A stretch of 30,334 bases of DNA, taken from assembly GCA_030041195.1 (NCBI GenBank), contig JASHOI010000671.1, positions 1 through 30,334 on the forward strand, read 5' to 3'. The DNA is from Streptosporangiaceae bacterium. Lineage in GTDB: Bacteria > Actinomycetota > Actinomycetes > Streptosporangiales > Streptosporangiaceae. Positions within the stretch are counted from its first letter, which is position 1, and the number at the start of each line of letters is the position of its first letter. Below are positions 10,096 through 26,377 of this stretch, one piece after another. The translations under genes and the position numbers were made by a program. Under the pieces are notes generated by a model. The model ran no database searches. It was not told the DNA's origin and worked only from the letters and a program-made list of their open reading frames with translations.

Positions 10096-12390
10096 ATGGC
10101 ACAGGAGTTCGGCGGCCGGATCGGCCGCGACTGGCGTGACTCCGAACCCTGGTGGCCGCCCGAACCGGCCCCGCCGCCGGGTGCGCCCAACGTGCTTCTC
10201 GTGGTGCTCGACGACGTCGGCTACGCGCAGCTCGGCTGCTACGGCTCGGACATCGAGACGCCGGTGATCGACGGCCTGGCCGCGGGCGGGGTCAGGCTCG
10301 CGAACTTCCACACCACGTCGTTGTGCTCGCCGACCCGGGCCTGCCTGCTGACCGGCCGGAACCACCACCGCAGCGGCATGGGCCGGATAGCCGACCTGGC
10401 CGTCGGGTACCCCGGCTACTGGGGCAAGCCGCCGCGCGAAAACGGCTACCTGTCCGAGGTCCTGCGCGCTGCGGGCTACGCGAGCTACGCGGTCGGGAAG
10501 TGGCACCTGTCCCCCGAGGACGAGACGAACATGGCCGCGTCCCGCGCCACCTGGCCACTGGCCAGGGGCTTCGACCGCTGGTACGGCTTCCACGGCGGCG
10601 AGACCCACCAGTTCGTGCCCGCGCTCTACCACGACAATCACTCGGTCCGGCCGCCCGCGTCGATGCAGGACGGCTACCACCTCACCGAAGACCTGGCCGA
10701 CCACGCGATCGAGTTCATCGCGGACCTGCGCGCGGTCGACCCTGGCAAGCCGTTCTTCCTCTACCTGGCGACCGGCGCCTGCCACTCGCCGCACCAGCCC
10801 CCGCCGCGCTGGCGCCATTACTACAGCGGGCGGTTCGACCTCGGCTGGGACGCCTGGCGCGAGCAGACGTTCGCGCGCCAGCATTCGGCCGGCCTGCTCC
10901 CGCACTCGACGCGGCTGTCCCGGCGGCCGGACTGGGTCCCGCCCTGGGATTCGCTGGGCCTGCTGGACCGGGTCGTCGCTGCCCGGTTCATGGAGTGTTT
11001 CGCCGGGTTCCTGTCGCACGCAGACGAGCAGCTAGGCCGGGTGCTCGGCTTCCTGGCGGACATCGGCGACCTGGACAACACGATCGTGGTCGTGGTCTCC
11101 GACAACGGGGCCAGCGCCGAGGGCGGCGCGACCGGGTCGATCAACGACGTGCGCATGGTGAACCTCGACCCGGCAACTCCACAGGAGATGTTCGCCAGAC
11201 TTTCCGAGATCGGCGGCCCGCTCACGCACAACAACTACCCGTGGGGCTGGACCATGGCCGGGAACACGCCGTTCCGGCGGTGGAAACGCGAGGTGCACGA
11301 GGGCGGCGTGGCCGATCCGTGCATCGTCTCCTGGCCGGCCGGGTCCCTGGAGGCAGGCGCGATCCGCGGCCAGTTCACGCACGCGATCGACGTCGCGCCG
11401 ACGCTGCTCGAGCTCGCCGGGCTCGACTACCCGGCCGAGATCGACGGCATCGCGCAGACCCCGGTCGATGGCGTGAGTTTCGGCTACCTGCTCGGCGCCG
11501 GGGGCGAGCGCGCCGCCGAGCGGCACACGACGCAGTACTTCGAGATGTTCGGGTCCCGTGCCGTCTACCACAGCGGGTGGAAGGCGGTGACGTTCCACCC
11601 AGTCGGGCCGCTGTACGACGATCAAGACCCGAACGCCCCGTTCGGGGCGGACGTATGGGAGCTGTACCACGTCAGAGAGGACCTCTCGGAGACCCGTGAT
11701 CTCGCGGGGCAGCGCCCCGACCTGCTGCGCGAGCTCATCGAGCTGTGGTGGGCGGAGGCCGAGCGCAACCAGGTGCTCCCGCTCGACAACAGGGTGCTGT
11801 GGGCGCTGGTGCACCCCAAGCCCGATCGCCGGCCGGCGCGCGAGGCGTTCCGCTACTTCCCCGGCGCGGCGCAGGTGCCGGAATCGGTCGCGGTGAACGT
11901 GCGGAACCGCTCGCACGCGCTGATCGTCGACGTGACGATGCCTGAGTCCGGGCCCGGCGACGGCGTGCTGCTCGCGATGGGATCCGCGCTCGGCGGATGG
12001 TCGCTGCACATCCTGGACGGCCGGGCCCGGTACGTGCACAACCTCTACGGCAGCGAGCGGCACACGGTCGAGTCGGCGGCGCCGGTCACGCCGGGCGAGC
12101 ACCGTATCGAGTTCGCCTTTACCAAGGATGACGGCCCTGGCGGCACCGGCGTGCTGAGCTGCGACGGGCAGGAGAGCGGGCGGGGTGTGATCCCCCGGTT
12201 CACACCGTCCGGGTTCAACGGCGTCGGCGCCGGGCTCACCTGCGGCTACGAGTGGGGGCCGGCGGTCGGCACCGGGTACACGGCGCCGTTCGCGTTCCGC
12301 GGCACGATCCGCGGCGCCCGGGTGGAGACCCGCGGCCGGGTCGTCCGCGACCCGCTGGCCGAGCTGGAGGCGATCCTGTCCGAGCAGTGA
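10096..12390 (+). CDS. arylsulfatase, AtsA-like (type I, formylglycine-dependent)
   Basis: 764 residues from the ATG at 10096, preceded by AAAGGGG. The sequence resembles mycobacterial AtsA throughout. Metal-binding VVLDDVGYAQLGCYG (D39, D40) is followed by FHTTSLCSPTRACLLTGRNH, whose C77-S-P-T-R81 is the formylglycine modification motif. GKWHL and VVSDNGASAEGG supply further active-site residues. The long C-terminal part (from about residue 520) contains YYF-type and beta-rich segments ending in YTAPFAFRGTIRGARVETRGR. It hydrolyses sulfate esters after a formylglycine-generating enzyme converts C77; no such enzyme gene is in the window. No signal peptide is visible, so cytosolic action is expected. 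The natural substrate is unknown. A flavin oxidase follows 82 bases downstream. Confidence 0.93.
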   Translation: MAQEFGGRIGRDWRDSEPWWPPEPAPPPGAPNVLLVVLDDVGYAQLGCYGSDIETPVIDGLAAGGVRLANFHTTSLCSPTRACLLTGRNHHRSGMGRIADLAVGYPGYWGKPPRENGYLSEVLRAAGYASYAVGKWHLSPEDETNMAASRATWPLARGFDRWYGFHGGETHQFVPALYHDNHSVRPPASMQDGYHLTEDLADHAIEFIADLRAVDPGKPFFLYLATGACHSPHQPPPRWRHYYSGRFDLGWDAWREQTFARQHSAGLLPHSTRLSRRPDWVPPWDSLGLLDRVVAARFMECFAGFLSHADEQLGRVLGFLADIGDLDNTIVVVVSDNGASAEGGATGSINDVRMVNLDPATPQEMFARLSEIGGPLTHNNYPWGWTMAGNTPFRRWKREVHEGGVADPCIVSWPAGSLEAGAIRGQFTHAIDVAPTLLELAGLDYPAEIDGIAQTPVDGVSFGYLLGAGGERAAERHTTQYFEMFGSRAVYHSGWKAVTFHPVGPLYDDQDPNAPFGADVWELYHVREDLSETRDLAGQRPDLLRELIELWWAEAERNQVLPLDNRVLWALVHPKPDRRPAREAFRYFPGAAQVPESVAVNVRNRSHALIVDVTMPESGPGDGVLLAMGSALGGWSLHILDGRARYVHNLYGSERHTVESAAPVTPGEHRIEFAFTKDDGPGGTGVLSCDGQESGRGVIPRFTPSGFNGVGAGLTCGYEWGPAVGTGYTAPFAFRGTIRGARVETRGRVVRDPLAELEAILSEQ

Positions 12391-12472
12391 CCGGCCCGCG
12401 TTTTGGCATCCGGTGGACGGGCGAAGATATCCGGGTACGGGTGGGGGGCCGGACAAACGGGGGGATAAGCCC

Positions 12473-13831
12473 ATGCAGGCTGACGAGACCGACGTCTGCG
12501 TCATCGGAGCGGGGTTCGCCGGGCTGACCGCTGCCAGAAGGCTGGTGGCGGCCGGGCGCGACGTGATCGTGCTGGAAGCACGCGATCGGGTCGGCGGACG
12601 GGTGTGGAATCGGGAAATGTCCGACGGAACCGTCGTGTCCGCGGGCGGCACCTGGCTCGGCAAGGGACAGGACCGCATGTTCGCGCTGTGCCAGGAATTG
12701 GGCATGGGGACGTACCCGCAGTTCGAGGACGGCGAGGTCCTGCTCGATGTCGACGGGAGCCAGTACCGGTACCGGGGCCTGATCCCCAACTTCGGTATCA
12801 CGCACGTGGCCGCGCTTGGCCTGGGCCTGTGGCGGCTGAACCGGCTGGTCAAGCGCGTCCCGATCGACTCGCCCTGGAAGGCGCCCGGCGCCGGGAAGCT
12901 CGACGCGCTGACGCTGTCGGAGTGGGTCAGCAACCCGGTCAACGTGCCGTCAAAAAAGGCCCAGGCCTTGCTGCTCGCCGCCCTGGGAACGTTCTTCTGC
13001 GTCGACCCCGCCGAAGTCTCGCTGCTGGGCAGCATGGTGCTCGCGGCGGGCGGAGGCGGTTTCCAGTACTACGCGGACAGCAAGAACACCGAAACGCACC
13101 TCATCGACGGCGGGAGTCCCGAGGTGGCCGCGCGGATGGCGGGCACGCTCGGCGACCGGGTCCGGCTGTCCAGCCCGGTACGCGCGGTCCGGCAGGACAA
13201 CGGCAGCATCGAGATCACGGCCGACGGCGGCACGGTCAGGGCCAGGCGGGCGGTGATGGCCACCCCGCCCTCGGTGGCCACGAAGATCGACTTCGACCCG
13301 GCGCTGCCGGGTGCCCAGACGCAGCTGCTGCGGCGCTACCTTCCCGGCGTTGTGATCAAGACCATCATCAGCTACGACGAGCCGTTCTGGCGGGCCGACG
13401 GGCTCACCGGCGAGACCGTGGCCCCGGCGTCACCGGTTCCGATCACGATCGATCAGTCGCCGCGCAGCGCGTCGCCCGGCGTGCTGACGAGCTTCGCCGT
13501 CGGCCCGGGCGCGCTGCGCCTGGCCGGGCTGCCCGCCGGGGAGCGGCGCGAGGAATGGCTCAGGGAACTGTCGAAGCGCCTCGGCCCCAAGGCCCGCACG
13601 CCGAGCGCGTACCTGGAAACCGACTGGTCCGCCGAGCCCTGGTCGCTCGGTGGCATGATCGGGCACCTGCCGCCCGGCGTGCTCACCAGCTACGGCCCGG
13701 CGATCCGCAAGCCAGCGGGCCACGTCCACTGGGCAGCATCGGAATGGGCCACGACCATGCACGGGCTCATGGAGGGCGCGGTCCGCTCCGGGGAGCGGGC
13801 GGCCGACGAGATACACAACGCCCTCGGCTGA
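12473..13831 (+). CDS. FAD-dependent flavin monoamine oxidase family protein
   Basis: 452 residues from the ATG at 12473, with a G-rich ribosome-binding stretch before it. The N-terminal FAD-binding motif is VCVIGAGFAGLTAARRL (G12-x-G14-x-x-G17), ending with the ribose-binding E35 in VIVLEARDRVGGRVW. The substrate domain is central. The C-terminal FAD motif reads AGHVHWAASEWATTMHGLMEGAVRSGERAADEI, as in monoamine/putrescine/amino-acid oxidases. Reaction: oxidative deamination of an amine with release of hydrogen peroxide. The usual covalent-FAD cysteine near the C-terminus of eukaryotic MAO is not seen. It follows the sulfatase in the same direction and may share its transcript. The specific amine is unknown. 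Confidence 0.9.
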   Translation: MQADETDVCVIGAGFAGLTAARRLVAAGRDVIVLEARDRVGGRVWNREMSDGTVVSAGGTWLGKGQDRMFALCQELGMGTYPQFEDGEVLLDVDGSQYRYRGLIPNFGITHVAALGLGLWRLNRLVKRVPIDSPWKAPGAGKLDALTLSEWVSNPVNVPSKKAQALLLAALGTFFCVDPAEVSLLGSMVLAAGGGGFQYYADSKNTETHLIDGGSPEVAARMAGTLGDRVRLSSPVRAVRQDNGSIEITADGGTVRARRAVMATPPSVATKIDFDPALPGAQTQLLRRYLPGVVIKTIISYDEPFWRADGLTGETVAPASPVPITIDQSPRSASPGVLTSFAVGPGALRLAGLPAGERREEWLRELSKRLGPKARTPSAYLETDWSAEPWSLGGMIGHLPPGVLTSYGPAIRKPAGHVHWAASEWATTMHGLMEGAVRSGERAADEIHNALG

Positions 13832-13904
13832 GGCGGTCCCGCCACCGTTCCCGGCGATCTCGGCCTGCGGCGCGTGCGAGACGATTGCGGACCGGCCATC
13901 GCGA

Positions 13905-13928
13905 GTTTACTATACCGGTTAAGTAAAC
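13905..13928. promoter_or_regulatory. LacI-type operator, box 1 (upstream of the GH1 gene)
   Basis: A 24-bp imperfect palindrome (20 of 24 positions symmetric) centred on CCGG. It contains CTATACCGGTTAAGT (13910-13924), identical in boxes at 21391-21405 and, inverted, 22708-22722. A CCGG or CG-centred palindrome is typical of LacI-family sites. It ends about 50 bases before the GH1 start codon. Confidence 0.8.
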
Positions 13929-13976
13929 GACCGCTTTGCGGCGCCGCAGAACCACGCGACGGAGGTTGGCGCAGCC

Positions 13977-15530
13977 TTGTCAGCTATCAACGGCGATGCC
14001 GTTTCGTTCCCCGAGGGCTTCCTGTTCGGGGCGGCCACCGCGGCGTACCAGGTCGAAGGGTCCGTGGCCGCCGGGGGCAGGGGCGTGTCCATCTGGGACA
14101 CGTTCAGCCACACGGCCGGTAACACGCTGAACGGCGATACCGGCGACATCGCGTGCGACCATTTCCTGCGGCTGGACGAAGATCTCGACCTGATCGCGGA
14201 GCTTGGCGCGCGGGCATACCGGTTCTCGGTCTCGTGGCCGCGTATCCAGCCGACGGGCAAGGGCCCGGCCAACCCCGAGGGCCTCGATTTCTACCGCCGG
14301 GTCGTGGACGGTCTTCGCGCCAGGGGCATCCTTCCCGTCCTCACGCTCTACCACTGGGACCTGCCGCAGCCGCTACAGGACGAGGGCGGGTGGCCGCGGC
14401 GCGACACCGCGGGCCGCTTCGCCGAGTACGCGGCGATCGTCGCCCAGGCCCTGGGCGAGACGGTCGGCAAGTGGATCACGCTCAACGAGCCGTGGTGCTC
14501 AGCCTGGCTGGGCTACGGATCCGGCCACCACGCCCCGGGGATACGCGACATCGGGAAGGCCGCGGCGGCCACTCATCACCTGCTGCTGGCGCACGGCGAG
14601 GCGACGGCGGCGATTCGTTCGGCCATCACAGCGGCCGAGGTGGGCATCTCGCTGAACCTGACGCCTATACGCAGCGCAACCGCACACGAGGACGACGTGG
14701 CCGCGGCGCGGCGGATGGACGGGAACGCGAACCGGCTGTTCCTCGATCCGCTGCTCAGGGGCAGCTACCCGCCCGACATGCTCGAGCATTACCAAGACCA
14801 GGTCCCGGGCTTCGCCGCGATCAGGAACGGCGACTTGGAGATGATTTCCCAGCCGCTGGATTTCCTCGGCATCAACTACTACACGCCGCGAACCGTCGCT
14901 GACGCGACGCGGGCTGCCGAGGCAACGATGGCGGGGCACTGCGTGCATGCGGCCGAGACCGACCTGATCTCGTCCGATCTGCGCGTGGTTCCGGTGCAAC
15001 GGCCGGGTTTCCGCCGCACCGAAATGGGCTGGGAGATCGAGCCCGCGGCGCTCACCGAACTGCTGGCCCGGGTCCGGCATGAGTACCCGCACATCCCGAT
15101 CCTGCTCACCGAGAACGGCGCGGCGTGCGGTGACTACGTCGGGCAGGACGGCTTGGTGCGGGACCCAGAGCGCATCCGTTACCTTGACGGGCACCTGCGC
15201 GCCGTGCTGGACGCCCACGGGGCGGGTTCGGATATTCGCGGGTACTTCGTCTGGAGCCTGATCGACAACTTCGAGTGGGCGTACGGCTACTCCAAGCGAT
15301 TCGGGCTGGTCTGGGTCGACTATCCGACCCGGACCCGGATCCGAAGGACAGCTTCCGGTGGTATGCGCAGACCGTTCGGGCGAGCGCGCTCGTGCCGGCT
15401 GCCGAGGCCACCGCCAGGCTCGGCGCCTGAGCGCGAAGGCAACTGGTGCCCGCCAATCAAGGCCGCTCTTCGGCGGCGACCAGGTGGTCCTGCTCGAACT
15501 CGGTCAGCGGCGGGGCCTGCAGGTCCTTGA
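13977..15530 (+). CDS. GH1 beta-glucosidase, C-terminal frameshift
   Basis: Open frame of 517 codons from a TTG at 13977, with GGAGG 11 bases upstream. It is a GH1 (alpha/beta)8 barrel: FLFGAATAAYQVEG at the start, acid/base E171 in TLNEPW, FLGINYYTPR, nucleophile E379 in ILLTENGA, and WSLIDNFEWAYGYSKRFGL at the sugar-binding loop. It retains glucose or galactose from beta-linked oligosaccharides and has no signal peptide, so it acts in the cytosol. After residue 454 homology moves to another frame; a one-base deletion near 15339 fits. The displaced part would end at 15430. As it stands, about 63 unrelated Arg/Pro-rich residues are appended and the frame runs into the convergent ATPase gene. 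Both catalytic residues survive, so activity may or may not remain. A LacI-type box lies upstream. Confidence 0.85.
   Translation: MSAINGDAVSFPEGFLFGAATAAYQVEGSVAAGGRGVSIWDTFSHTAGNTLNGDTGDIACDHFLRLDEDLDLIAELGARAYRFSVSWPRIQPTGKGPANPEGLDFYRRVVDGLRARGILPVLTLYHWDLPQPLQDEGGWPRRDTAGRFAEYAAIVAQALGETVGKWITLNEPWCSAWLGYGSGHHAPGIRDIGKAAAATHHLLLAHGEATAAIRSAITAAEVGISLNLTPIRSATAHEDDVAAARRMDGNANRLFLDPLLRGSYPPDMLEHYQDQVPGFAAIRNGDLEMISQPLDFLGINYYTPRTVADATRAAEATMAGHCVHAAETDLISSDLRVVPVQRPGFRRTEMGWEIEPAALTELLARVRHEYPHIPILLTENGAACGDYVGQDGLVRDPERIRYLDGHLRAVLDAHGAGSDIRGYFVWSLIDNFEWAYGYSKRFGLVWVDYPTRTRIRRTASGGMRRPFGRARSCRLPRPPPGSAPEREGNWCPPIKAALRRRPGGPARTRSAAGPAGP
15338..15430 (+). pseudogene. frame-displaced C-terminus of the GH1 gene
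   Basis: In the frame shifted relative to the GH1 start, codons from 15338 read DPKDSFRWYAQTVRASAL and continue to a TGA at 15428-15430. This is the normal GH1 ending (T-P-K-D-S-F-x-W-Y). Inserting one base near 15339 would give R-T-P-K-D and a protein of about 485 residues, normal for GH1. Confidence 0.8.
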
Positions 15531-16416
15531 CCGCCTCCCGGACCTGACCGCGCATCGTGGGCGGCCGTTGACCGCCCGGGGAACGCACCGCCAGAGGATG
15601 GCCGGCCGCACCGTTCCCGGCTGCGGGCGCGTGCCACTTTTTGTGCAGCTGCGGCACGGCGGCCAGCAGCATCTTCGTGTAGGAGTGCTGCGGGTTGCCG
15701 AACACCTTGGCCGTCGACCCGGTCTCCACGACCGCGCCATGCCGCAGGATCACGGTCCGGTCGCTTATGTAGCTGCCGAGCGACAGGTCGTGCGTGATGA
15801 ACAGGATCGCCAGCCCGGCGCGCTTCAGCCCGACGAGCAGGTTGAGCACGTCCACCCGCGTTGAGGCGTCGAGCATGCTGATGATCTCGTCGGCCACCAG
15901 CAGCTTGACGTCAAGCAGCAGCGCGCGGGCGATCAGCAGCCGCTGCTGCTGACCGCCGGAGAGCTGATGGGGGTACTTGTTCAGCACGTCGCCCGGGTTC
16001 AGCGCGACGCCGTGCAGCGCCGATTCGATCTTGGCGTCCCAGGCCCGCTGCGGCGTCCGGGGGAAGTACTCGTGCCGGAGCATCTCGAACACCCGGTCGG
16101 CCTTGTAGATGGGGTTGTAGGAGCTGAATGGGTCCTGGAAGACGCCCTGCACGTTGCGGTAGTAGTCGCGGAGCTGAGCCCTCCGGAACGCGGAGATGTC
16201 TTCTCCGCCGAAGGTCACCTTGCCGTCGCTGGGCTGGGTGAGACGCAGCACGATCTTGCCGAGCGTGGTCTTGCCGCTGCCGCTCTCCCCGATCAGCGTG
16301 ACCACCTCACCCTCGCCGATGCCGAAGCTGACCTTTCGCAGCGCAGGGGTCAGCCCGCCGCGGGCTCCGCTGGCCCGGAACACCTTGGATACCTGGTCGA
16401 TCTGGAGCGCGCTCAT
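15457..16416 (-). CDS. ABC transporter ATP-binding protein, OppF/DppF type
   Basis: 319 residues from an ATG at 16416 that overlaps the stop of the upstream ATPase by ATGA. Walker A is GESGSGKT (43-50), the ABC signature is LSGGQQQR, Walker B is LLVADE followed by IISMLDAS, and the H-loop is FITHDLS. Energises import by the oligopeptide/oligosaccharide-type permease encoded upstream. The proline usually following the Walker B glutamate is Ile here. The C-terminus lacks a clear cysteine-rich oligopeptide-transporter extension and instead ends with a polar tail (LQAPPLTEFEQDH). It is the last gene of the importer operon, and its stop lies near the convergent GH1 gene. Confidence 0.9.
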   Translation of the reverse strand: MSALQIDQVSKVFRASGARGGLTPALRKVSFGIGEGEVVTLIGESGSGKTTLGKIVLRLTQPSDGKVTFGGEDISAFRRAQLRDYYRNVQGVFQDPFSSYNPIYKADRVFEMLRHEYFPRTPQRAWDAKIESALHGVALNPGDVLNKYPHQLSGGQQQRLLIARALLLDVKLLVADEIISMLDASTRVDVLNLLVGLKRAGLAILFITHDLSLGSYISDRTVILRHGAVVETGSTAKVFGNPQHSYTKMLLAAVPQLHKKWHAPAAGNGAAGHPLAVRSPGGQRPPTMRGQVREAVKDLQAPPLTEFEQDHLVAAEERP

Positions 16417-17408
16417 TGGGTGACCCTCGCACGGTCCGGCGTTCGCACCGCTGTCTCCTCCGAGACCTTCCAGCAGGCGACGTAGTGCCCGGGCCGAACC
16501 TCCTCGAACGGCGGTTGCTCGGCGCACCGCTGGTAAGCGAAGGGGCAGCGCTCGCGGAACCGGCAGCCGGCCGGCGGGTTGGCCAGCGATGGGGGGCGTC
16601 CCGGTATGCCGGTCAGGGTGGTCTCGTCATAGCGCGACCCGACGGCGGGCAGCGACGCGAGCAGCAGCTGAGTGTAGGGATGCAGCGGGAAGCTGACGAT
16701 CGTGCCGGTGTCCGCCTTCTCGGCCAGCCTGCCCGCGTACATCACCAGGATGCTGTCGGCGATCTGCGCCAGGACCGAGAGGTCGTGCGTGATCACGATG
16801 AGGCTCTTGACGAACCCTCGCCCCCGGAACTCGAGCATCAGCTCCCCCACGGCCCTCTGGGTGGAGACGTCGAGCGCCGAGGTGACCTCGTCGGCGACGA
16901 GCAGGGACGGGTTCAGCAGCGTGGACAGAACGAGCGTCACCCGCTGCCGCATGCCGCCGGAAAGCTCGAAGGAGTACCTGTCCAGCACGTTGGACTCGAG
17001 CCCGACGAGTGCGATGCGGCGTTCCATCTCCTCGGCCACGTCCCGGTAGCGCACCCCGTGGCTGCGCAGCAGGTCGGCGGTCAGCCGCCGTACCTTGCGG
17101 GTGGGGTTCAGTGCGCTCATCGCGTACTGGGGGACCAGGGACACGTCCCTCATCCGCCGCGGCCGCATCGCCCTAGTGTCGGCGATCGGGAGTTCCCTCC
17201 CGTCGAGCTCGACCCGGCCGCCGAGCTGCCTCATCCGGGCTTCCAGGTAGATCAGGCTGTTGCCGAGCGTCGACTTCCCGGAGCCCGACTCCCCCGCGAG
17301 CCCCATGATCTCGCCGTCGGCGACGGAGAAGCTGACGTCGTCGACCGCCACGACATCGCCGGCCAGCGTCCGGTAGGCGACGCGGAGGTTCTCGACGTTC
17401 AGGCTCAC
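16413..17408 (-). CDS. ABC transporter ATP-binding protein, OppD/DppD type
   Basis: 331 residues from a GTG at 17408 that overlaps the preceding permease stop as GTGA; a longer open frame upstream is a shadow of the permease. Walker A is GESGSGKS (39-46), followed by Q-loop VPQYAMSALNP, signature LSGGMRQR, Walker B LLVADEVTSALD and VITHDLS. The C-terminal extension, GCRFRERCPFAYQRC, carries the cysteines typical of oligopeptide-family ATPases, some of which bind an iron-sulfur cluster. With the OppF-like protein it would form the ATPase pair of a heteromeric importer. Confidence 0.9.
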   Translation of the reverse strand: MSLNVENLRVAYRTLAGDVVAVDDVSFSVADGEIMGLAGESGSGKSTLGNSLIYLEARMRQLGGRVELDGRELPIADTRAMRPRRMRDVSLVPQYAMSALNPTRKVRRLTADLLRSHGVRYRDVAEEMERRIALVGLESNVLDRYSFELSGGMRQRVTLVLSTLLNPSLLVADEVTSALDVSTQRAVGELMLEFRGRGFVKSLIVITHDLSVLAQIADSILVMYAGRLAEKADTGTIVSFPLHPYTQLLLASLPAVGSRYDETTLTGIPGRPPSLANPPAGCRFRERCPFAYQRCAEQPPFEEVRPGHYVACWKVSEETAVRTPDRARVTQ

Positions 17409-18313
17409 TGGGTCCTCAGCTTCGGGTTGAAGACCTCGTCGAGGCCGACGTTTGCGATCAGCAGGGCGGCCACCATCCCGGTGAGAACGACCCCTGGCGT
17501 CACGAACCACCACCAGTAGTGGTACTGCAGGGCGCTCCATTCGTTGGCCTGGTTCATGATCGTGCCCAGCGAGATGCCGTTGGTCGGGCCGAGGCCGAGG
17601 AAGTCGTAGCTGGCCGCGAGCAGCATCGAACTGCCGAACAGCAGCACTACGACGAGGAACAGGTAGGACGCCATGTTGGGGGCGATGTCGGCGATCACGA
17701 TCTGGTAGGCACGCTTGCCCGACAACCGGGCCAGGTCGACGAAGTCGCGCGAGCGGAGCGTAAAGGTCTGCGCCCGCACCGCCCGCGCCACCCACGGCCA
17801 CGTGGTGAGGCCGATGAACACGCCCTCGAACAGCGCGCCGCGGGTCTTCAGGTAGGCGCCGATCACGATCAGCAGGACCAGCGACGGGATCATGATGATG
17901 ATGTTGGTAAACATCTGCACCACCTCGTCGAGCCAGCCGCCCCGGTAGCCCGCGGTCAGGCCGAGCGCCACGCCGATCACGGCCGCGGACAGCGCCCCGA
18001 GCGCGCCGACCAGGTAACTGTCCCGCAGCCCGGCCACCACCTCGGCGAACAGGTCGTGGCCGAGGTTATCGGTGCCGAACCAGTGCTGCGCCGACGGCGG
18101 CAGGTACGAGGCGAAGAAGTCGGTGGTGTTGTGCGGCGAGATCACCGGGCCGAAGATCGCGCCGAGTACGAACAGCGTCTCGAGGCACAGGCCGAAGACC
18201 AGCTTGGGGTTGCGCAGCGCGTAGTGCAGGAACTCGCCGCGGTAGCGGGTCACCGCCGGTGATTCGGCGGCGGGCCGCTGGCTCTGCTCGCCCTCGGTGA
18301 GAAGCTCGCTCAT
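17405..18313 (-). CDS. ABC transporter permease, OppC/DppC type
   Basis: 302 residues; the ATG at 18313 overlaps the stop of the upstream permease (ATGA). A cytoplasmic N-terminus is followed by LVFGLCLETLFVLGAIFGPVI, then the family segment HWFGTDNLGHDLFAEVVAGLRDS, the hallmark of OppC-type subunits. The coupling loop is near ARAVRAQTFTLRSRDFVDLARLSG, which contacts the ATPases. About six membrane spans are present. It forms the channel with the OppB-like partner. Confidence 0.92.
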   Translation of the reverse strand: MSELLTEGEQSQRPAAESPAVTRYRGEFLHYALRNPKLVFGLCLETLFVLGAIFGPVISPHNTTDFFASYLPPSAQHWFGTDNLGHDLFAEVVAGLRDSYLVGALGALSAAVIGVALGLTAGYRGGWLDEVVQMFTNIIIMIPSLVLLIVIGAYLKTRGALFEGVFIGLTTWPWVARAVRAQTFTLRSRDFVDLARLSGKRAYQIVIADIAPNMASYLFLVVVLLFGSSMLLAASYDFLGLGPTNGISLGTIMNQANEWSALQYHYWWWFVTPGVVLTGMVAALLIANVGLDEVFNPKLRTQ

Positions 18314-19299
18314 GATGCTCCCTGCATGCTGAGACGGGTTCTCGGGTCCACGACGACGAAGATCATGTCGATGATGAAGTTGGCCACGAGCACGCCCAGG
18401 ATGATGAAGATGAAGATCCCCTGCAGCAGGAAGTAGTCCTCGCGCTCGATCGCGTTGAAGATCAGGTAACCGAGGCCCGGGTAGCGGAACGCGACCTCGG
18501 CGACGATGTTGCCGCCGATCACGATGCCAAGCGCCAGGGCGAGACCGGACAGCTGCGGCAGCGAGGCGTTCCGGTATGCGTACCTGCGAACCAGGCGTTC
18601 CCTCGCCCCGAGCGCCCGCAGGTACCGCGAGCTGTCGTTTTCCAGCTCGTAGATGACCAGGTTGCGCATGCCGATGGCCCAGCCGCCGAGGCTGACAAGG
18701 AAGACCGTCAAGAACGGCAGGAACCAGTGGTCGATCAGGCTCCATACGAACGTCCAGGACAGGGTGGGCAGCATGCCGTAGCCGTAGGCCCCGGAAATGG
18801 GGAACACATGCCAGACCTCGCCGAGCAGGAACGGCAGTGCGAGCGCGAGCCAGGGGTAGGGCGTGGCCTGGAGCACGTAGCCGAGGGGCAGCACCGTGTT
18901 GTCGAGGGCCTTGCGTCGCGCAGCGAGTGCGCCGAGCCGGTTGCCAACGATGTAGGACAGCGTGATCGCGGGCACGAGCAGCGCGAGGGTATAGGGAAGG
19001 GCGCTCCAGATCAGCGACGTCACCGTGGCCGGGAAGTCGTAGATGCTGACACCGAGATTGCCGTGCACCAGACCGTCCCAGTAGTGCAGGTACTGGTCCC
19101 AGAGCGGCAGGTTCGTGCCGAATGCCTCGGACATCGTCTTGTACAGCGGCGCGTACCCGGACGGCTGCAGGTCGAAGTTCGACAGGTAGAGCTGGACCGG
19201 GTTGCCGGGCATCAGGTGAGGGATGCCCCAGTCGATGGTCGCACCAACGAAGAACGTCAGCACGTAGGTGATGATCTTCCGGGCGAAGTACCGTCGCAC
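18310..19299 (-). CDS. ABC transporter permease, OppB/DppB type
   Basis: 329 residues from a GTG at 19299. The choice rests on GAGGAG ending 7 bases before it; a GTG two codons upstream is too close to that site. RRYFARKIITYVLTFFVGATIDWGIPHLMPGNPV is the OppB-type first span and loop. A coupling loop follows at IYELENDSSRYLRALGARERLVRRYAYRNASLP, and EVAFRYPGLGYLIFNAIEREDY is the terminal family motif. It lies 114 bases after the binding-protein gene, separated by a strong hairpin. Forms the importer channel with the OppC-type permease. Confidence 0.92.
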   Translation of the reverse strand: MRRYFARKIITYVLTFFVGATIDWGIPHLMPGNPVQLYLSNFDLQPSGYAPLYKTMSEAFGTNLPLWDQYLHYWDGLVHGNLGVSIYDFPATVTSLIWSALPYTLALLVPAITLSYIVGNRLGALAARRKALDNTVLPLGYVLQATPYPWLALALPFLLGEVWHVFPISGAYGYGMLPTLSWTFVWSLIDHWFLPFLTVFLVSLGGWAIGMRNLVIYELENDSSRYLRALGARERLVRRYAYRNASLPQLSGLALALGIVIGGNIVAEVAFRYPGLGYLIFNAIEREDYFLLQGIFIFIILGVLVANFIIDMIFVVVDPRTRLSMQGAS

Positions 19300-19328
19300 G
19301 GGCACGCTCCTCGGGTACTGCAGCGGGC

Positions 19329-19368
19329 CTGCGGCCCGCCGTCCCCAACCCGGGACAGCGGGCCGCAG
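19329..19368. terminator. intra-operon hairpin between binding-protein and permease genes
   Basis: CTGCGGCCCGC (19329-19339) pairs with 19358-19368, and after one mismatch GTCCC pairs with GGGAC around a 6-base loop. That is a 17-position stem with one mismatch. In this position such hairpins commonly protect or partially terminate the message, giving more binding protein than permease. No T tract is seen on the transcribed strand. Confidence 0.7.
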
Positions 19369-19412
19369 CATCCGTGGCTTTTGAACCTATCCGGATGAGA
19401 CCGGCGTGTGGA

Positions 19413-21188
19413 TCACGAGCTTGGCACCGGCGGAGCAGGCCTGAGGTCGGCCAGCGCGTAGACGGTCGTCATCGCGCCGAGGTAGCCGTACCACATGACC
19501 GGGGTGTTCTGGTCGCTGGCGGTGCCGCTCGAGGGGTAGCTCGTCCAGTACTTGGTGTTGCCCTGGAACCAGGCGCCGTTGTACCAGACCGGGATCTCGG
19601 GCAGCTGCTGCAGGAAGCTCGTCTCGAGCTGGCCGTAGATCGAGTCGAGCTTGGTGGTGTCGGACACCGGCGTGGAGCCGGCCTGCTGCACAAGCGCCCA
19701 GTCGGCCGGCGAGCTGTAGCGCTCCCAGTTGAGCTGGGCCGTCTGCTGCTTCTCGATCGGCAGGTTGTACACCCGCTGGAAGTAGCTCCACGGCGTGGAG
19801 TCGAGGCTGGCGTTGTTGTCCAGCGCCAGGTCGTAGTTGCCGCTGGTCAGGTCCGCGTCGCGGGCGGCCTCCTGGGGGTAGATGGGCGTGATCTTGATGC
19901 CGACCGCGGCCGCGTCCTGGGCGATCACCTGGGTGCCTGCCATCCAGTCGGTCCATCCGTCGGGCACCTCCAGGGTGATGTTCTGGCCGCTGTAGCCCGA
20001 CTTCGCCAGATACTGCCTGGCCAGCGCCGGGTCGTAGCTGTACCCGTACTTGCTGACCACGCCCTGGTTGACAAAGGAACTCAGGTTCGGCAGCAGCCCG
20101 GTCGGGCTGGCCGGCTGGGTGATCCCGCCGTAGACCGCGCTCACGATCTGCCTTGGGTTGATCGCGTAGGCCAGTGCCTTGCGGAAGTTGACGTTGTTCA
20201 TCGGGGCCTTGGTCGTGTTCGGCTCCAGCCAGACCGTGTTCGCCGACAGCATGTACGGAGAGTTCGGGTAGTAGGTCTTGAAGCCGTACCCGGCGTTGCC
20301 GTTCAGGCCGCTCACCAGCTCGTTGATGCCGGGCAGGAAGTTGTTGCTCCAGTCGATCTGCCCCGCGGTGAGCGCGGACAGCTCGACGTTGTTGGAGCCG
20401 TTGACGACGTCGACCAGGTACTTGAACTTGAATGAGAGACCGAGCTGCTTGATCGCCCACCAGTTCGGGTTGTCCTTGTAGGCCACCTCGGTGGAGTTGT
20501 ACGTGTCGAGCAGCATCGGCCCGGTTCCCACCGGGTTCTTGTTGGCCCCGGTGATCTGGTTGGCCGCCGACAGCTTGGACCAGATGGCCTGCGGCACGAT
20601 CGGAGCCTTCCAGAGGAAGTCCTGCCACGCGGTGTAAGCCGGTGAGCTGGTGAACTTCACCGTCACGGTGTTGCCGCTCGCGGTCGCGCCGGTCACGGTG
20701 GCCACGTTGGAGGCGAACGGGTCGGACTTGTTGGTCCTGGCCAGGTTGATCGAGTACGCGACGTCTGCGCCGGTCAGCGGTGTCCCGTTGCTCCACTTCA
20801 CGCCGCTGCGGACCTGGATCGTGTAGGTGTCGCCGCTCCAGGTGCCGCTCGTGGCCAGCCACGGGTCGTATTTGTTGTGGATCGGGTCGTAGAGGAACAG
20901 CGGCTCGTAGACCAGGCCCTGCGTGCCGGTGGCCATGTTGCCGATATTGAATGGGTTCCAGTTGGAGGGCGGCGCGTAGGCCGTCCCGCTGGTGTAGAGC
21001 GTGTCAGACCGTGGGAAGCCCGCCAGCGAAGCCGACGACGATGACGAGGTCGGCGTGGAACTCTTCGGCGAGCTGGTGCACGCACTGGCCAGCCCGGCAA
21101 GCAGGACAGCCGCGGCGGCCATGCTCGCCCAGCGGGCACCCGCCCGGTGGGCTCTGCTCGTGCCCGTCGGCTTCTTTTTATTTCTCAC
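19413..21188 (-). CDS. ABC transporter substrate-binding lipoprotein, SBP_bac_5 (oligopeptide/oligosaccharide) family
   Basis: 591 residues from a GTG at 21188, GGAGG 10 bases upstream. A basic N-terminus and hydrophobic segment lead to LAGLASAC, a lipobox with C37 as the lipid-anchored residue, then a Ser/Thr/Pro-rich linker. The mature part has the family-5 binding fold: NWNPFNIGNMATGTQGLVYEPLF, then SGVKWSNGTPLTGADVAYSINLA and NNVNFRKALAYAINPRQIV. It is extracytoplasmic and would deliver ligand to the permeases encoded next. Homologues bind peptides or, in several bacteria, cello-, manno- or xyloglucan-type oligosaccharides. The surrounding glycosidases and shared operator favour a sugar ligand. 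It is the first gene of the importer operon, downstream of LacI-type box 2. Confidence 0.92.
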   Translation of the reverse strand: MRNKKKPTGTSRAHRAGARWASMAAAAVLLAGLASACTSSPKSSTPTSSSSSASLAGFPRSDTLYTSGTAYAPPSNWNPFNIGNMATGTQGLVYEPLFLYDPIHNKYDPWLATSGTWSGDTYTIQVRSGVKWSNGTPLTGADVAYSINLARTNKSDPFASNVATVTGATASGNTVTVKFTSSPAYTAWQDFLWKAPIVPQAIWSKLSAANQITGANKNPVGTGPMLLDTYNSTEVAYKDNPNWWAIKQLGLSFKFKYLVDVVNGSNNVELSALTAGQIDWSNNFLPGINELVSGLNGNAGYGFKTYYPNSPYMLSANTVWLEPNTTKAPMNNVNFRKALAYAINPRQIVSAVYGGITQPASPTGLLPNLSSFVNQGVVSKYGYSYDPALARQYLAKSGYSGQNITLEVPDGWTDWMAGTQVIAQDAAAVGIKITPIYPQEAARDADLTSGNYDLALDNNASLDSTPWSYFQRVYNLPIEKQQTAQLNWERYSSPADWALVQQAGSTPVSDTTKLDSIYGQLETSFLQQLPEIPVWYNGAWFQGNTKYWTSYPSSGTASDQNTPVMWYGYLGAMTTVYALADLRPAPPVPSS

Positions 21189-21496
21189 CCGGCTCTTGCC
21201 TCCTCGATCGCAAGACCACTGGAATTTCGCTGAGACCCCGGTCTGCGGTCACCGGAAATGCCGCAGCATCCCGGGACGCACAAATTAGAGCCATAGGACA
21301 CCGCCGATTCGGGCGCCTTACTCGTTTTCCGGGCTGCCGCGCCAGGACAGCCGGATTCGCCTGGGCCCGCACCACTGCAAGCCCCGTTAGCTATACCGGT
21401 TAAGTGTTACTCCTGTGTGGCCAGCTGGTAAAGTCCCGTGCATGTATCGCTAAGGTCTCGATCAGATATCGGGACGGTAAAGCCGGTACGTCATGA
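21189..21496. other. 308-bp gene-free leader of the importer operon
   Basis: Lies between lacI (minus) and the binding-protein gene (minus). It contains LacI-type box 2, about 200 bases before the binding-protein start, so a long untranslated leader is possible. No coding sequence or convincing riboswitch fold was recognised. Confidence 0.6.
21386..21409. promoter_or_regulatory. LacI-type operator, box 2 (importer operon)
   Basis: Contains CTATACCGGTTAAGT at 21391-21405, identical to boxes 1 and 3. The flanks vary. It is located between lacI and the binding-protein gene, both read on the minus strand. Confidence 0.8.
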
Positions 21497-22507
21497 TCAG
21501 GCAGGGCGGCCCGTGCTGCCGCGCGGGATGAGGACCGGCGGCGGTTCCTGGAAGTCACCGACCTCGGACCCGCCGACCAGCGCGATCAGGCGGCGCGCCC
21601 CCTCGGCGCCCACCGCGGCTATGTCCCGCCGCAGCGCGGTCAGCGGCGGGTGGACCAGCTCGCACAGCGGGGAATCGTCCCAGGCCACGATCGACAGCTC
21701 GCCGGGCACCTGCACGCCCATGTGCTGGGCCAGGCTGAGCCCGGACAGCGCCATGAGGTCGTTGTCGTACAGGATCGCGGTCGGCGGCCTGGCCGACTGC
21801 AGCAGTTCGGCGGTTGCCTTGGCACCGTGCTCGCCGGTGTAGTCGCCCTCTACGGACACCGCCTCGAGACCAGCGGCACGCGCGACCTCGCGCAGCGCAT
21901 CCGCGCGCAGCTTGGTGTGCCAGTACCTGGGGATGCCGCTTACCCACGCCAGCCGCCGGTGGCCGAGGCCGGCCAGGTACTCAACCGCGGTCCGGGTGGC
22001 GGCGACTTCGTCCTGCCAGACCGCTGGCAGCCCGTCCGACCCCTTGGGCGTGCCGAACGCGATCGCCGGCATCTGCAGGTCCCGCAGCGCGGCCAGGCGC
22101 TTGTCACGGAGCTGGAGGTCGACGATGAACACGCCGTCGACCCGGCCCTGGGCCCACCAGGTCCGGTACAACTCGATCTCCGCCGCCTGATCCTCGGCCG
22201 TGGTGAACAGCAGCGCGATGTGATCGCCGGAGAGCTCGGCCTGGATGCCGGAGAGAAGCCGCATGAAGTAGGACTCGATGCCCAGCATCCAGGCCGGCCG
22301 GTCGAAGACGAACCCGAACGCCCCCGCCCGGCCGTCGGAAAGGGCGCGCGCGGCGCTGCTCGGCTGGAAGCCGATCTCACTGGCGATCGCCAGGATGCGC
22401 GCCCTGGTCGCCTCGGAGACGCCGGGCTGGCCGTTGAGCGCGAACGACACGGCCGCCTTGGTCACTCCCGCCCGGCTCGCGATGTCGGCGATGGTCGGAC
22501 GCTTCAC
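21497..22507 (-). CDS. LacI-family transcriptional regulator of the carbohydrate locus
   Basis: 336 residues from a GTG at 22507 with GAGAGGGG 6 bases upstream; the longer frame lacks a good site. The N-terminus is the LacI helix-turn-helix, RPTIADIASRAGVTKAAVSFALNG, with the hinge RILAIASEIGFQPSSAARAL. A periplasmic-binding-protein-like sensor domain follows (DGVFIVD, GHRRLAWVSG, ILYDNDLMALSGL, DSPLCELVHPPLTALRRD). Such proteins repress sugar-use genes until a sugar binds. Three identical 15-bp boxes in this locus, one 200 bases upstream of its own start, indicate it controls the importer, GH1 and GH5-like/GH51-like genes, and probably itself. The inducer is unknown. Confidence 0.92.
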   Translation of the reverse strand: MKRPTIADIASRAGVTKAAVSFALNGQPGVSEATRARILAIASEIGFQPSSAARALSDGRAGAFGFVFDRPAWMLGIESYFMRLLSGIQAELSGDHIALLFTTAEDQAAEIELYRTWWAQGRVDGVFIVDLQLRDKRLAALRDLQMPAIAFGTPKGSDGLPAVWQDEVAATRTAVEYLAGLGHRRLAWVSGIPRYWHTKLRADALREVARAAGLEAVSVEGDYTGEHGAKATAELLQSARPPTAILYDNDLMALSGLSLAQHMGVQVPGELSIVAWDDSPLCELVHPPLTALRRDIAAVGAEGARRLIALVGGSEVGDFQEPPPVLIPRGSTGRPA

Positions 22508-22703
22508 CTGTGTCCCCTCTCGACGGTTGCCCGCCGTTCGGCGCGGCACCGCCAGGCCGCGGCAGCACGCGGCGCTCCTGCCAGCCAAGTGTAATGGCGA
22601 GGTCCGGGCGACCGCCTCCCGCGACACGGAGCGTATCGGCGCGCCCACCAAGGGTTGTTAAAGAAAGCCGGGCGAAAGACTTCTCAGATAGCGTTCCCGG
22701 CGG

Positions 22704-22727
22704 TAATACTTAACCGGTATAGCAAGC
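22704..22727. promoter_or_regulatory. LacI-type operator, box 3 (between lacI and the GH5-like gene)
   Basis: The 15-bp core ACTTAACCGGTATAG (22708-22722) is the exact reverse complement of the cores of boxes 1 and 2. It lies 72 bases before the GH5-like start codon and about 200 bases upstream of lacI, so it may regulate both divergent genes. Confidence 0.8.
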
Positions 22728-22794
22728 CGTCGGACTCCCTGGTGCTTCACCAGCGGACTCGCTCGTTCCCGGATCGAAGAAGGGGGCCTTCCGC

Positions 22795-24744
22795 ATGCAC
22801 CGTAATTCCGCGCCGATCGTGGTAGCGGGGCAGCCGGTCAACTGGCTGGGAGCCAACTTCTGGTCCCGGACCGGCGGCCCGCTGATGTGGCGGAATTACG
22901 ATCCCGACACGGTCCGCGCGGAACTTGCGGTGCTGCGGGAGCACGGCCTGGGCATGACCCGCTCGTTTTTCTTCTGGCCGGACTTCATGCCGGAGCCGGA
23001 CCGCATCGATGAGGCGATGGCCGACCGCTTCGCCGACTTCCTCGACCGGCACGCCGAGGCTGGCATGTCGACCGTGCCGACGTTCATCGTCGGCCACATG
23101 TCCGGCGAGAACTGGGATCCTCCCTGGCGCGAAGGCCGGGACCTGTACGCCGACGTCTGGATGGTCGGACGGCAGGCCTGGTTCGCCGGCGAGATGGTCC
23201 GCCGTTTCGGCGCCCACCCGGCCGTGTGCGGCTGGGTCGTCTCCAACGAAATGCCGATCTACGGCAGCGGAAACACGCCGCGACAGGTCATCGCCGCCTG
23301 GGCTCAGATCATCAGGGACGCGGTCCGCGCGGCAGGCGGTTTGCAGCCGTTTTCGCTCGGCGATGGCGCGTGGGGGACCAAACTCACCGGCAGGCACACC
23401 GGATTCGCGCTCGCCGACACGGCGCGGCTGTGCGACTTCCTCGGCCCGCACGTCTACCCCACCAGTGACGACGAGGTGCGCCAGCACTACACGGCTGCCT
23501 GGGAGTGCGAGCTGGCCGGGACGTTCGGCCGGCCGGTCATCCTCGAGGAGTTCGGGGTCAGCTCGGACTTCGCGGCCGACGCCAACGCCGCCCGCTACTA
23601 CCGCCAGGTGCTGCACAACAGCCTGCTGGCCGGCGCGACCGGCTGGATCGGATGGTGCAATTCAGACTACGACGAGCTGGCCGGACAGGATCCCTACCGG
23701 CACCACGCGTTCGAGCTGCACTTCGGGCTCACCGACAGCCGCGGCAATCCCAAGCCGCAGCTTGCCGAGATGAAGGCGTTCGCCGAGACGCTGCGGGCGG
23801 TCGACATCGGCCGCTGCCAGCGTGCCGCCACCGACGCGGCCCTGGTGGTGTCGTCCTATCTGGACACCAGCTACCCGTTCACCTCGCCGGACGAGGCCGG
23901 CTACATATACGACACGTTGCGCCAGGCCTACGTGTCCGCCCGGCTCGCGGACCTGCCGCTGGCGCTGGCCAGGGAGAAAGACGGCATCGGCGACGACGCC
24001 ATGCTCTACCTCGTGCCGTCGGTCAAGCAGCTGCTGGCGCCCACCTGGGACGAGCTGGAACGGCTGGCCATCGGGGGCGCGACGGTCTACGTCTCGTACT
24101 CCCCCGGGCTGACGGGGTGGCATCGCGGGCCGTCCTATGGCCGCCTCAACGACATGTTCGGGGTCGAGCATCAGCTCAAGGCCGGGCTGATCGACCCGAT
24201 CGAGGACGATCAGGTGACGTTCTGCTTCGTCAGGGACCTCGGCTCGGTCTCCGCCGGGACACGGCTGACCTTCCGCGCGGGCGGCAATGATCACAGCCGC
24301 GCTTACCTGCCGGTCCGCCCGGTCAGCGCGGAAGTGGTCGCGGTCGACGGGCACGGCAGGCCCGCCCTGCTGCTGCATCGCGTGGGTGCGGGCTCGGTCG
24401 TGCTGTGCACCTACCCGGTGGAGCACATGGCCGCCGCGACGCCGCGGGTCAACCCGGAGGCGACCGGCGCGGTCTACGAGGCTCTCGCCACGCACGCTGG
24501 GGTCCGCCGGTGGCTGACCGTCGATGACCCGCTGGTCGCTTCGGACGTGCTCGTCCGCTCCGACGGAACCCGTTTCGCATGGCTGGTGAGCCAGGCAGCC
24601 GAGCCGGTCACGGTCAAGCCGGAACTCGCCGCCGGGCTCCGGATGGCCCATCTCGATGGCTCCGCCGCCGACTCGGGCGTCACTCTTCCCCCGTTCGGCG
24701 TCGGCGTCTTCCGGCTGGACGCCAGCCCCGCCCCGGACAGCTAG
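22795..24744 (+). CDS. intracellular GH5-like glycoside hydrolase with GH42-like C-terminal domains
   Basis: 649 residues from an ATG at 22795 with AAGGGGG 8 bases before it. Residues 15-330 form a GH5-type barrel: GANFWSRTGGPLMW, acid/base E152 in VVSNEMP, H219 in GPHVYPTSDD, nucleophile E252 in VILEEFGVSS, and GWIGWCNSDYD. Residues about 345-540 look like the Rossmann-like trimerisation domain of GH42 beta-galactosidases (LVVSSYLDTSYPF ... AMLYLVPSVKQL ... VYVSYSPGLTGW). A beta-rich domain ends in PPFGVGVFRLD. No signal peptide, so it acts on imported sugar. The substrate could be a beta-mannoside, beta-glucoside or beta-galactoside. The next gene starts 19 bases downstream; LacI box 3 lies upstream. 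Confidence 0.82.
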   Translation: MHRNSAPIVVAGQPVNWLGANFWSRTGGPLMWRNYDPDTVRAELAVLREHGLGMTRSFFFWPDFMPEPDRIDEAMADRFADFLDRHAEAGMSTVPTFIVGHMSGENWDPPWREGRDLYADVWMVGRQAWFAGEMVRRFGAHPAVCGWVVSNEMPIYGSGNTPRQVIAAWAQIIRDAVRAAGGLQPFSLGDGAWGTKLTGRHTGFALADTARLCDFLGPHVYPTSDDEVRQHYTAAWECELAGTFGRPVILEEFGVSSDFAADANAARYYRQVLHNSLLAGATGWIGWCNSDYDELAGQDPYRHHAFELHFGLTDSRGNPKPQLAEMKAFAETLRAVDIGRCQRAATDAALVVSSYLDTSYPFTSPDEAGYIYDTLRQAYVSARLADLPLALAREKDGIGDDAMLYLVPSVKQLLAPTWDELERLAIGGATVYVSYSPGLTGWHRGPSYGRLNDMFGVEHQLKAGLIDPIEDDQVTFCFVRDLGSVSAGTRLTFRAGGNDHSRAYLPVRPVSAEVVAVDGHGRPALLLHRVGAGSVVLCTYPVEHMAAATPRVNPEATGAVYEALATHAGVRRWLTVDDPLVASDVLVRSDGTRFAWLVSQAAEPVTVKPELAAGLRMAHLDGSAADSGVTLPPFGVGVFRLDASPAPDS

Positions 24745-24763
24745 ACCATCGAAGGGAGTCGCG

Positions 24764-26362
24764 ATGATCGCAGTACCAGGTACGGGCAAGGGCGGGCGGC
24801 GCCTGCTGGGAGCCGCCTTAGCCGCCACCGTGGCGGTCGTGCTGACGGCCGCTCCCGCGGCCCTGGCCGGCGCTCCGGCGCAGGCAGGCCCACAAGGCAC
24901 GCCGGTGTCGCCGCTGGCCCTCGGCCTCAACACCGCGCCGTGGGACTACATCTATGCCGCCGACACGTCGGCGGACGGCGGGCTCAACACGCTCCAGCCG
25001 CTGCTGCAGGCGGCCGGCGTCGGCCTGCTCCGCTACGGCGGCGGCTCCTACGCCGACTACTACGACTGGCAGACCAACTCGAACATCCAGAACTGCCTGC
25101 CGTACGACACCACGGCGTCGTTCGTGGTGACGCCCACCGGCTGCGCGACCTCGGACTCGCTCGGCTTCGACCAGTTCTCCGCCCAGGCCAGGGCGATCGG
25201 CGCCGGGAGCTTCGTGACCGTGAACTACGGTTCCGGCACGCCGGAAGAGGCGGCGGCCTGGGTGACCCATTCGCTGACCACACCGGGGGATGGCGTGGCG
25301 TTCTGGGAAGTCGGCAATGAGACCTACGGCTGCTGGGAGGTCAACAACTGGCTGGCGGGGCCGCCCGAGAACTACCAGGGCTACACCCCCAACACCTACA
25401 CCGAGGTGAACGGGGTCGACGAGAACCCGACGTGCCCGCAGGTGACCGAGGGCGACGCGGCGGGCACTCAGACGCTGGCGACCTCGTACGCCGTCAACGC
25501 GCTTGCGTTCCTGCGCGCGATGAAGGCCGCCGATCCGTCCGCACAGATCGGTGTGCCCTGGGCCTTCGGCGGCAACGTGCAAGGCGCCTCGGTTCCCGAC
25601 AGCGACGAGTGGAACGACACCGTGCTGGGCGAGGACGGCAGGGACGTCAGCTTCGTCGACGCGCACTACTACCCGTTCACGTTCGGCGGCGCCACCGGCG
25701 GAAGCAACCCGACCGACCAGCAGGTCCTGCGGTCCCTGATGTCGGTGCCCTCGCTGTACCGGCAGATCCGCGGCGAACTCGACGCCTACGACCCGAATGC
25801 GCAGGTGATCGTCGGAGAGACCGGCGTGTCCAACAACGAGACCACGACCGTCTGCACCCCCACCGGGGCGTTGTTCGCCGCCGGGGACGTCCTGTCCTGG
25901 CTGGCGGCCGGGGCGCAGAGCGTGGACTGGTGGGACATGAACAACTACGGCAACACGACCGCCTCGTGCACGAACCCGGACTACGGGATGTTCACGTCAA
26001 GCTCGCCTCCGGCGCCGGAGACGCCCTATTACGGCTATCTGCTGGCCTCGGTGCTGGCCCGGCCGCACGCGCTGCTCGGCGCCATGCCGACCTCCGACCC
26101 CACCGACGTCCTGGCATATCAGTCGCTGCTGCCCGGGGGTGAGAGGGCCGTCGCGTTCCTCAACACCAACACCAGTTCGGCGCGGACGGTGCGCTTCGAC
26201 TCCGCCGGGTTGTCCGGCCCGCTGCACACGTGGACCTACAGCGCGGGCAACCAGAACGCCACAAACTCGAACATCGTCCAGGGCACGGCGAGCGCCTCCT
26301 CGCTCGCCTCCGGCATCACGCTGCCGGCCGAGTCCATGGTGATTCTCGAGGCGCAAGACTAG
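24764..26362 (+). CDS. secreted GH51-like alpha-L-arabinofuranosidase family protein
   Basis: 532 residues from an ATG at 24764, with GAAGGGAG before it; the frame is open upstream through the previous gene. A signal peptide is clear: a KGGRR basic part, LLGAALAATVAVVLTAAPAAL, and cleavage near ALA-G (about 35). The mature protein begins SPLALGLNTAPWD, then LLRYGGGSYADYYDWQTN and VNYGSGTPEEAAAWV. Putative acid/base E186 lies in FWEVGNETYG and nucleophile E352 in VIVGETGVSNNE. A beta-sandwich end follows. This pattern matches actinobacterial proteins called alpha-L-arabinofuranosidase-like, releasing arabinose from plant polysaccharides outside the cell. It is co-directional with, and 19 bases after, the GH5-like gene. 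The exact GH family is uncertain. Confidence 0.8.
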   Translation: MIAVPGTGKGGRRLLGAALAATVAVVLTAAPAALAGAPAQAGPQGTPVSPLALGLNTAPWDYIYAADTSADGGLNTLQPLLQAAGVGLLRYGGGSYADYYDWQTNSNIQNCLPYDTTASFVVTPTGCATSDSLGFDQFSAQARAIGAGSFVTVNYGSGTPEEAAAWVTHSLTTPGDGVAFWEVGNETYGCWEVNNWLAGPPENYQGYTPNTYTEVNGVDENPTCPQVTEGDAAGTQTLATSYAVNALAFLRAMKAADPSAQIGVPWAFGGNVQGASVPDSDEWNDTVLGEDGRDVSFVDAHYYPFTFGGATGGSNPTDQQVLRSLMSVPSLYRQIRGELDAYDPNAQVIVGETGVSNNETTTVCTPTGALFAAGDVLSWLAAGAQSVDWWDMNNYGNTTASCTNPDYGMFTSSSPPAPETPYYGYLLASVLARPHALLGAMPTSDPTDVLAYQSLLPGGERAVAFLNTNTSSARTVRFDSAGLSGPLHTWTYSAGNQNATNSNIVQGTASASSLASGITLPAESMVILEAQD

Positions 26363-26377
26363 GCCACGAGATGTGCG

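Follow-up and report, generated by a model that had tools for sequence, protein, structure and literature searches.

Three identical copies of a 15-bp box, CTATACCGGTTAAGT, are most probably operators of the LacI-family repressor encoded at 21497-22507 (probability about 0.87) in the stretch of Streptosporangiaceae DNA analysed here (30,334 nt, hereafter the window). From the sequence, we infer LacI binding, repression, the overlap with a -10 region and an inducer. Control of sugar genes by LacI-family repressors acting at CG-centred upstream operators is already known (PMC4052901), and the boxes share the attributes of such operators, being even palindromes with a central CG that lie upstream of the regulator and of sugar genes. 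The putative operators and the genes of the locus are as follows.

13905..13928 (15-mer at 13910-13924), + strand: putative operator 1, before GH1; the -10-like TACTAT overlaps its 5' half
13977..15530, + strand: GH1 beta-glucosidase (TIGR03356) open frame, by homology
15457..16416, - strand: OppF/DppF-type ATPase of the importer, by homology
16413..17408, - strand: OppD/DppD-type ATPase, by homology
17405..18313, - strand: OppC-type permease, by homology
18310..19305, - strand: OppB-type permease; GTG start by choice, the open frame extending to 19371
19413..21188, - strand: SBP_bac_5 binding lipoprotein of the importer; best solved relatives 4pft, 1vr5 and 4pfu
21391..21405, + strand: putative operator 2, reading ACTTAACCGGTATAG in the importer direction, with TATAGC in the gene-proximal half
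21497..22507, - strand: LacI-family repressor with helix-turn-helix VTKAAVSFALNG (PF00356, PF13377)
22708..22722, - strand: putative operator 3, common to lacI (-) and GH5 (+), reading ACTTAACCGGTATAG in the GH5 direction
22795..24744, + strand: GH5-like protein, with a predicted fold nearest the exo-beta-1,4-mannosidase Op5Man5 (7bob)
24764..26362, + strand: GH51-like protein with a signal-peptide-like start; ATG 24764, 19 nt past GH5

Three exact copies of the 15-mer, at 13910-13924, 21391-21405 and 22708-22722, had been claimed in an earlier note on this DNA, and all positions and strands were confirmed. By shuffling, 0.07 copies are expected by chance, three copies were reached in 0 of 100 shuffles, and the window holds no additional copy at up to three mismatches. 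The other 15-mers with at least three copies in the window are local tandem repeats (8077-8213 and 8834-8893), which leaves the box as the sole dispersed one; with this and the expectation of 0.07, a chance repeat was rejected as the origin of the three boxes. The 24-bp tandem repeat at 8077-8213 encodes a proline/glycine/tyrosine-rich tail made of GYGQPSPS units. The CCGG centre and partly palindromic character of the box were likewise borne out: in 10 of its 14 letters, the core CTATACCGGTTAAG is the same as its reverse complement CTTAACCGGTATAG, and the extended GH1 site (13905-13928) is self-complementary at 20 of 24. Operator 2 lies 202 bp upstream of the likely start of the binding protein (21188), and from operator 3 it is 200 bp to the lacI start and 72 bp to the ATG (22795) of the divergent GH5 gene. 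The proposal of one box per transcription unit holds for GH1 and the importer and fails for lacI, GH5-like and GH51-like as a single unit, since lacI and GH5/GH51-like form two divergent units with one common box.

The GH1 protein scores 579.2 bits against TIGR03356, above the curated cut-off of 478.5. Its homology departs from the open frame near 15330-15345, and the C-terminal tail typical of GH1 can be read in a different frame, which stops at 15428-15430; this frame change, within 15320-15430, is either a sequencing error or a real frameshift. Upstream of GH1, at 10036-13831, the window encodes a sulfatase-like protein and a flavin amine oxidase, with no box before either within three mismatches. 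The closest solved relatives of the importer's binding protein are presumably all Thermotoga proteins, and one of them, 4pfu, is also named a mannoside sugar-binding protein. The LacI protein matches PF00356 (helix-turn-helix) at 54.8 bits and PF13377 (periplasmic-binding-like sensor domain) at 106.7 bits, and homology places its start at GTG 22507. For the GH5-like protein, a fair structural model (mean pLDDT 80.6) matches the fold of 7bob best (Op5Man5, 21-22% identity), with GH42 and GH164 enzymes next in rank.

The GH51-like gene is likely in the same operon as GH5. Its product has weak GH51 matches only and no Pfam family, and with 20.7 bits against a cut-off of 625 it falls outside GH51 by the NCBIfam ArfA model. 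Residues N185-E186 and E352 are invariant across 35 sequences and, together with the weak GH51 matches, fit clan GH-A. Fold matches were set aside, the predicted structure having a mean pLDDT of 44.7. A Pfam domain is absent from all of the 120 matches listed, whose names, where present, are 'hypothetical protein' bar one α-N-arabinofuranosidase. Lacking a Pfam model and fused to CBM2 in relatives (L100, L102, L103, L104), the family is possibly an undescribed glycoside hydrolase family. No Rfam match was found in the window.

The association between box and repressor was followed into related genomes. A genome contig search with the window LacI returned eight loci, the best of them in a Streptosporangiaceae MAG (71%; genome G001, 6.4 Mb), where the exact 14-mer occurs at two places only, both adjoining lacI. 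Genome-wide box counts were made in 341 genomes of the family of this closest relative, 208 of which carry LacI relatives at E<=1e-50. The exact 15-mer was found at 17 places in 11 genomes, against 0 for the reversed control; ten of the 11 carry a LacI orthologue of 62-72% identity and the eleventh (G072) one of 56%, and the 15-mer is absent from G030, G018 and G019 despite LacI orthologues of 62-63%. All 17 places were inspected and lie in the lacI-GH5 gap, in the lacI-importer gap or, once, in G072, before a CBM2-GH5 cellulase, whose gene probably starts 26-41 bp downstream of the box, the start set by the gene caller being upstream of it. At up to one mismatch, the 14-mer occurs at 32 places in relatives versus 7 in the control.

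Four box variants, allowing up to two mismatches, were sought beside lacI at 30 orthologue loci (L017-L046). The box adjoins lacI in 28 of them (16 within one mismatch, 12 exact), with none at L025 and L039. Reversed patterns gave 0/30 and column-permuted ones a mean of 0.42/30, although one of the 100 permutations hit 21/30. The recognition helix VTKAAVSFALN pairs with CTATACCGGTTAAG, the exception being L025, which is without a box; VTKSTVSFALN is accompanied by CTAAACCGGTTTAG in five of six loci, though in two of the five at a distance from lacI of over 2 kb; and VSKGAVSYALN and its kin are found with looser variants. Judged by these pairings, the box drifts in step with the recognition helix. 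It is best read as an operator dedicated to the neighbouring LacI, whose clade it tracks in relatives.

Furthermore, a palindromic pattern, CTNWACCGGTWNAG, was scanned in the ten genomes with 62-72% LacI orthologues and the exact 15-mer, and was found at 33 places versus 13 for the reversed control. Its neighbours are the importer (11), GH5 (10), GH94 (5), GH51-like (5), GH5-CBM2 (1) and a gene with weak resemblance to an IS21 transposase (1, at L095), so that 32 of the 33 places precede genes of the first five kinds and the last is the non-sugar exception. A 1-mismatch site in G336 (L107) also counts against the operator reading, the genes that it precedes not being assigned to sugar use. The boxed GH94 protein of L093 is a cellobiose phosphorylase by sequence (about 1060 bits versus solved cellobiose phosphorylases), the other four boxed GH94 proteins are 76-81% identical to it, and the box is present in five of the seven genomes (out of ten) with GH94 matches. 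In L093 (2793-3884) and L099 (2712-3884), a Meth_synt_2 gene of the MetE C-terminal type lies directly upstream of the boxed GH94; in L094 and L101, a partial second box (TTACCGGTA) immediately precedes the GH94 operator and is possibly a tandem site. CBM2 is present in four of the five boxed GH51-like proteins, the fifth (G001) being an 80-84% relative of the window protein. Another G001 box, CTTGACCGGTATAG, stands 40 bp upstream of a divergent gene that is truncated by the contig end and begins like a CBM2 protein (20.3 bits against a cut-off of 24, with only the first 20 positions available); at 433-553 bp from GH48, it was rejected as a GH48 operator. Weaker boxes were left out of these counts, namely a 2- and 3-mismatch box 216-218 bp before GH48 in G336 and G332, and a weak CTTAAACGGTTTAT box in two of seven GH6 loci. 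Upstream of 6/16 GH1 relatives, at a distance of 11-165 bp, there is a box with 2-3 mismatches. GH5 in G029 is followed by a gene for AXE1, an acetyl esterase.

The importer binding protein behind the same operator comes in two kinds (L108 and L111 versus window 19413-21188), 28-34% identical between kinds; three kinds were considered and rejected, the two alternative proteins being 51% identical to each other. By its neighbours, the box would mark a multi-locus β-1,4-glucan/mannan regulon in the relatives' lineage. The wider genome search that the earlier note had called for, run here in relatives, yielded further copies before sugar genes with few exceptions, and the many unrelated copies named there as a refutation were not seen in them. 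The term 'self-contained', applied to the regulon in the same note, is probably too narrow, because relatives carry the operator on other contigs, before GH94, GH51-like, GH5-CBM2 and CBM2 genes.

The orientation of the sites bears on how the repressor might act. A hand tally covered 36 asymmetric sites (31 of the 33 CTNWACCGGTWNAG places, the three window boxes, that of G072 and that of the G001 CBM2 gene); it left out the symmetric G046 site, the IS21-like site, lacI itself, which is read in the opposite direction from the shared box, and the weaker boxes (GH48, GH1 relatives, and extra 1-mismatch sites beside lacI). At 35 of the 36, the gene-proximal half is GGTATAG or GGTAAAG and resembles a -10 element. 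The sole exception is the window GH1, whose box is oriented opposite to all others tallied; there, a -10-like TACTAT overlaps the other half of the box, and TTGCGG (3/6 to TTGACA) lies 17 bp upstream. The box ends 8-9 bp short of the ATG in four of five GH94 genes and in one GH51-like gene, as a leaderless promoter with TAAAGT for its -10 would predict. Scanning 13600-27600 for the sigma-70 consensus gave 0 promoter-like sites, a result that neither supports nor refutes the -10 idea. Since the -10-like half lies nearest the gene at 35/36 sites, repression likely proceeds by covering the promoter; in Caldicellulosiruptor bescii, LacI-family sites that fall on promoter elements or within 5' untranslated regions were read as pointing to repression (PMC8579813). 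The same regularity would be expected if the box were mainly a conserved -10 region and no operator at all. This is very improbable: conservation extends to the distal half, CTTAACC/CTAAACC, which completes a dyad, G046 has a full palindrome, CTTAACCGGTTAAG, 9 bp before its GH5-CBM2 start, and a general promoter element would precede many unrelated genes, a spread not seen in relatives.

It is also improbable, though less so, that the boxes belong to another LacI-family protein encoded elsewhere, be it a CelR/CebR orthologue or a different sugar regulator, and that the neighbouring LacI has other targets. Even palindromes centred on CG are general in the LacI family (Ravcheev et al., 2014, PMC4052901), and related genomes hold LacI paralogues, for example near GH48 in G001 and, as judged from N-termini, beside some GH1 genes. 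Against such an assignment, the box accompanies the window LacI clade and adjoins lacI in nearly all orthologue loci, and the CelR/CebR box TGGGAGCGCTCCCA does not exceed its control in the ten relatives (13 places vs 15 at up to one mismatch; exact in 1/10 genomes). CelR boxes thus do not appear to run the multi-locus regulon of the relatives, and by operator the window boxes, which differ in sequence, fall outside the CelR/CebR group.

CelR/CebR systems have a CebEFG-type importer, unlike the Opp/SBP_bac_5 importer of the window; their operator is TGGGAGCGCTCCCA versus CTATACCGGTTAAG here, and the recognition helix differs. Among solved structures, the window LacI scores 117 bits against 5ysz, which we take to be CelR, and 250 bits against 4o5a. 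In function, the nearest models are nonetheless CelR of Thermobifida fusca and CebR of Streptomyces, LacI-family repressors of the cellulose regulon with a CG-centred operator before a sugar importer, a β-glucosidase and cellulases (Anderson et al., 2012, PMC3377646; Book et al., 2016, PMC4898821), along with CelR of Thermotoga maritima, a cellobiose-induced LacI repressor with the celEFGKL transporter and cellobiose phosphorylase (PMC3750489), from a different phylum, the likeness being one of regulon content. A non-CelR cellulase motif of Cellulomonas flavigena, CNAA(T/A)CGNTTANNNA, shares an AA.CG.TT core before cellulases (PMC3377646); its sequence is not the same as the window box and it serves as a lead only, and that paper names no regulator for it.

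LacI homologues of 48-49% identity (L002 and L003, in Streptomyces-type genomes) adjoin a GH2 β-mannosidase and have related boxes, CTGTATCGGTTCAG and CTTAAGCGATTCAG, although the L002 importer is of the SBP_bac_1 type, unlike that of the window. Because of these neighbours and boxes, the comparison suggests that the window LacI is of ManR-like rather than CelR-like origin. Streptomyces ManR is reportedly a mannoside-responsive LacI repressor, said to have been described by Ohashi et al. in 2021. A ManR-type context may recur in the window, with the predicted exo-β-mannosidase-like GH5 fold and a binding protein resembling a mannoside-binding one. LacI repressors of mannan or manno-oligosaccharide genes are also represented by GlyR2 of Clostridium thermocellum (PMC10766802) and MosR of C. 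bescii (PMC8579813), the likeness being one of gene content.

A narrower version of the preferred explanation, in which the window regulon serves β-mannan only and lacks the cellulase-type targets of the relatives, is accordingly worth weighing and seems rather unlikely. The modelled GH5 fold, closest to an exo-β-mannosidase, the binding protein closest to 4pft/1vr5/4pfu and the 48%-identical LacI homologues beside GH2 β-mannosidase would all fit it, while GH1 exceeds the β-glucosidase cut-off of TIGR03356 and the relatives have boxes before GH94 in 5/7 genomes as well as before CBM2 cellulases or CBM2 proteins. Under the broader reading, with glucan and mannan both included, a LacI dimer would, without inducer, sit on the CCGG-centred box, overlapping or abutting the promoter -10 region, and would block GH1, the Opp-type oligosaccharide importer, GH5-GH51-like and lacI itself. 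The inducer may be a disaccharide or short oligosaccharide with β-1,4 linkages, whether mannobiose, cellobiose or a mixed gluco-mannoside; it would enter via the SBP_bac_5 system and free LacI from the box.

In a literature search limited to the best matches, no description of the present operator or regulator was found, and the box looks like an undescribed switch for the use of β-linked plant sugars. Tentatively, and with somewhat less than even confidence, a ManR-like LacI with a -10-embedded operator may have taken over the control of cellulose plus β-mannan use from CelR/CebR in a Streptosporangiaceae-type lineage, with one operator retained and at least two kinds of Opp-type importer exchanged behind it. 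Given a precise operator, sequence by itself would suffice to read the plant-polymer regulons of a poorly studied actinobacterial lineage; the operator also directs attention to unnamed enzymes, such as the GH51-like family, as proteins of cell-wall degradation. A further gain is a case, open to testing, in which a single sugar repressor occupies the place held by CelR/CebR in better-known relatives.
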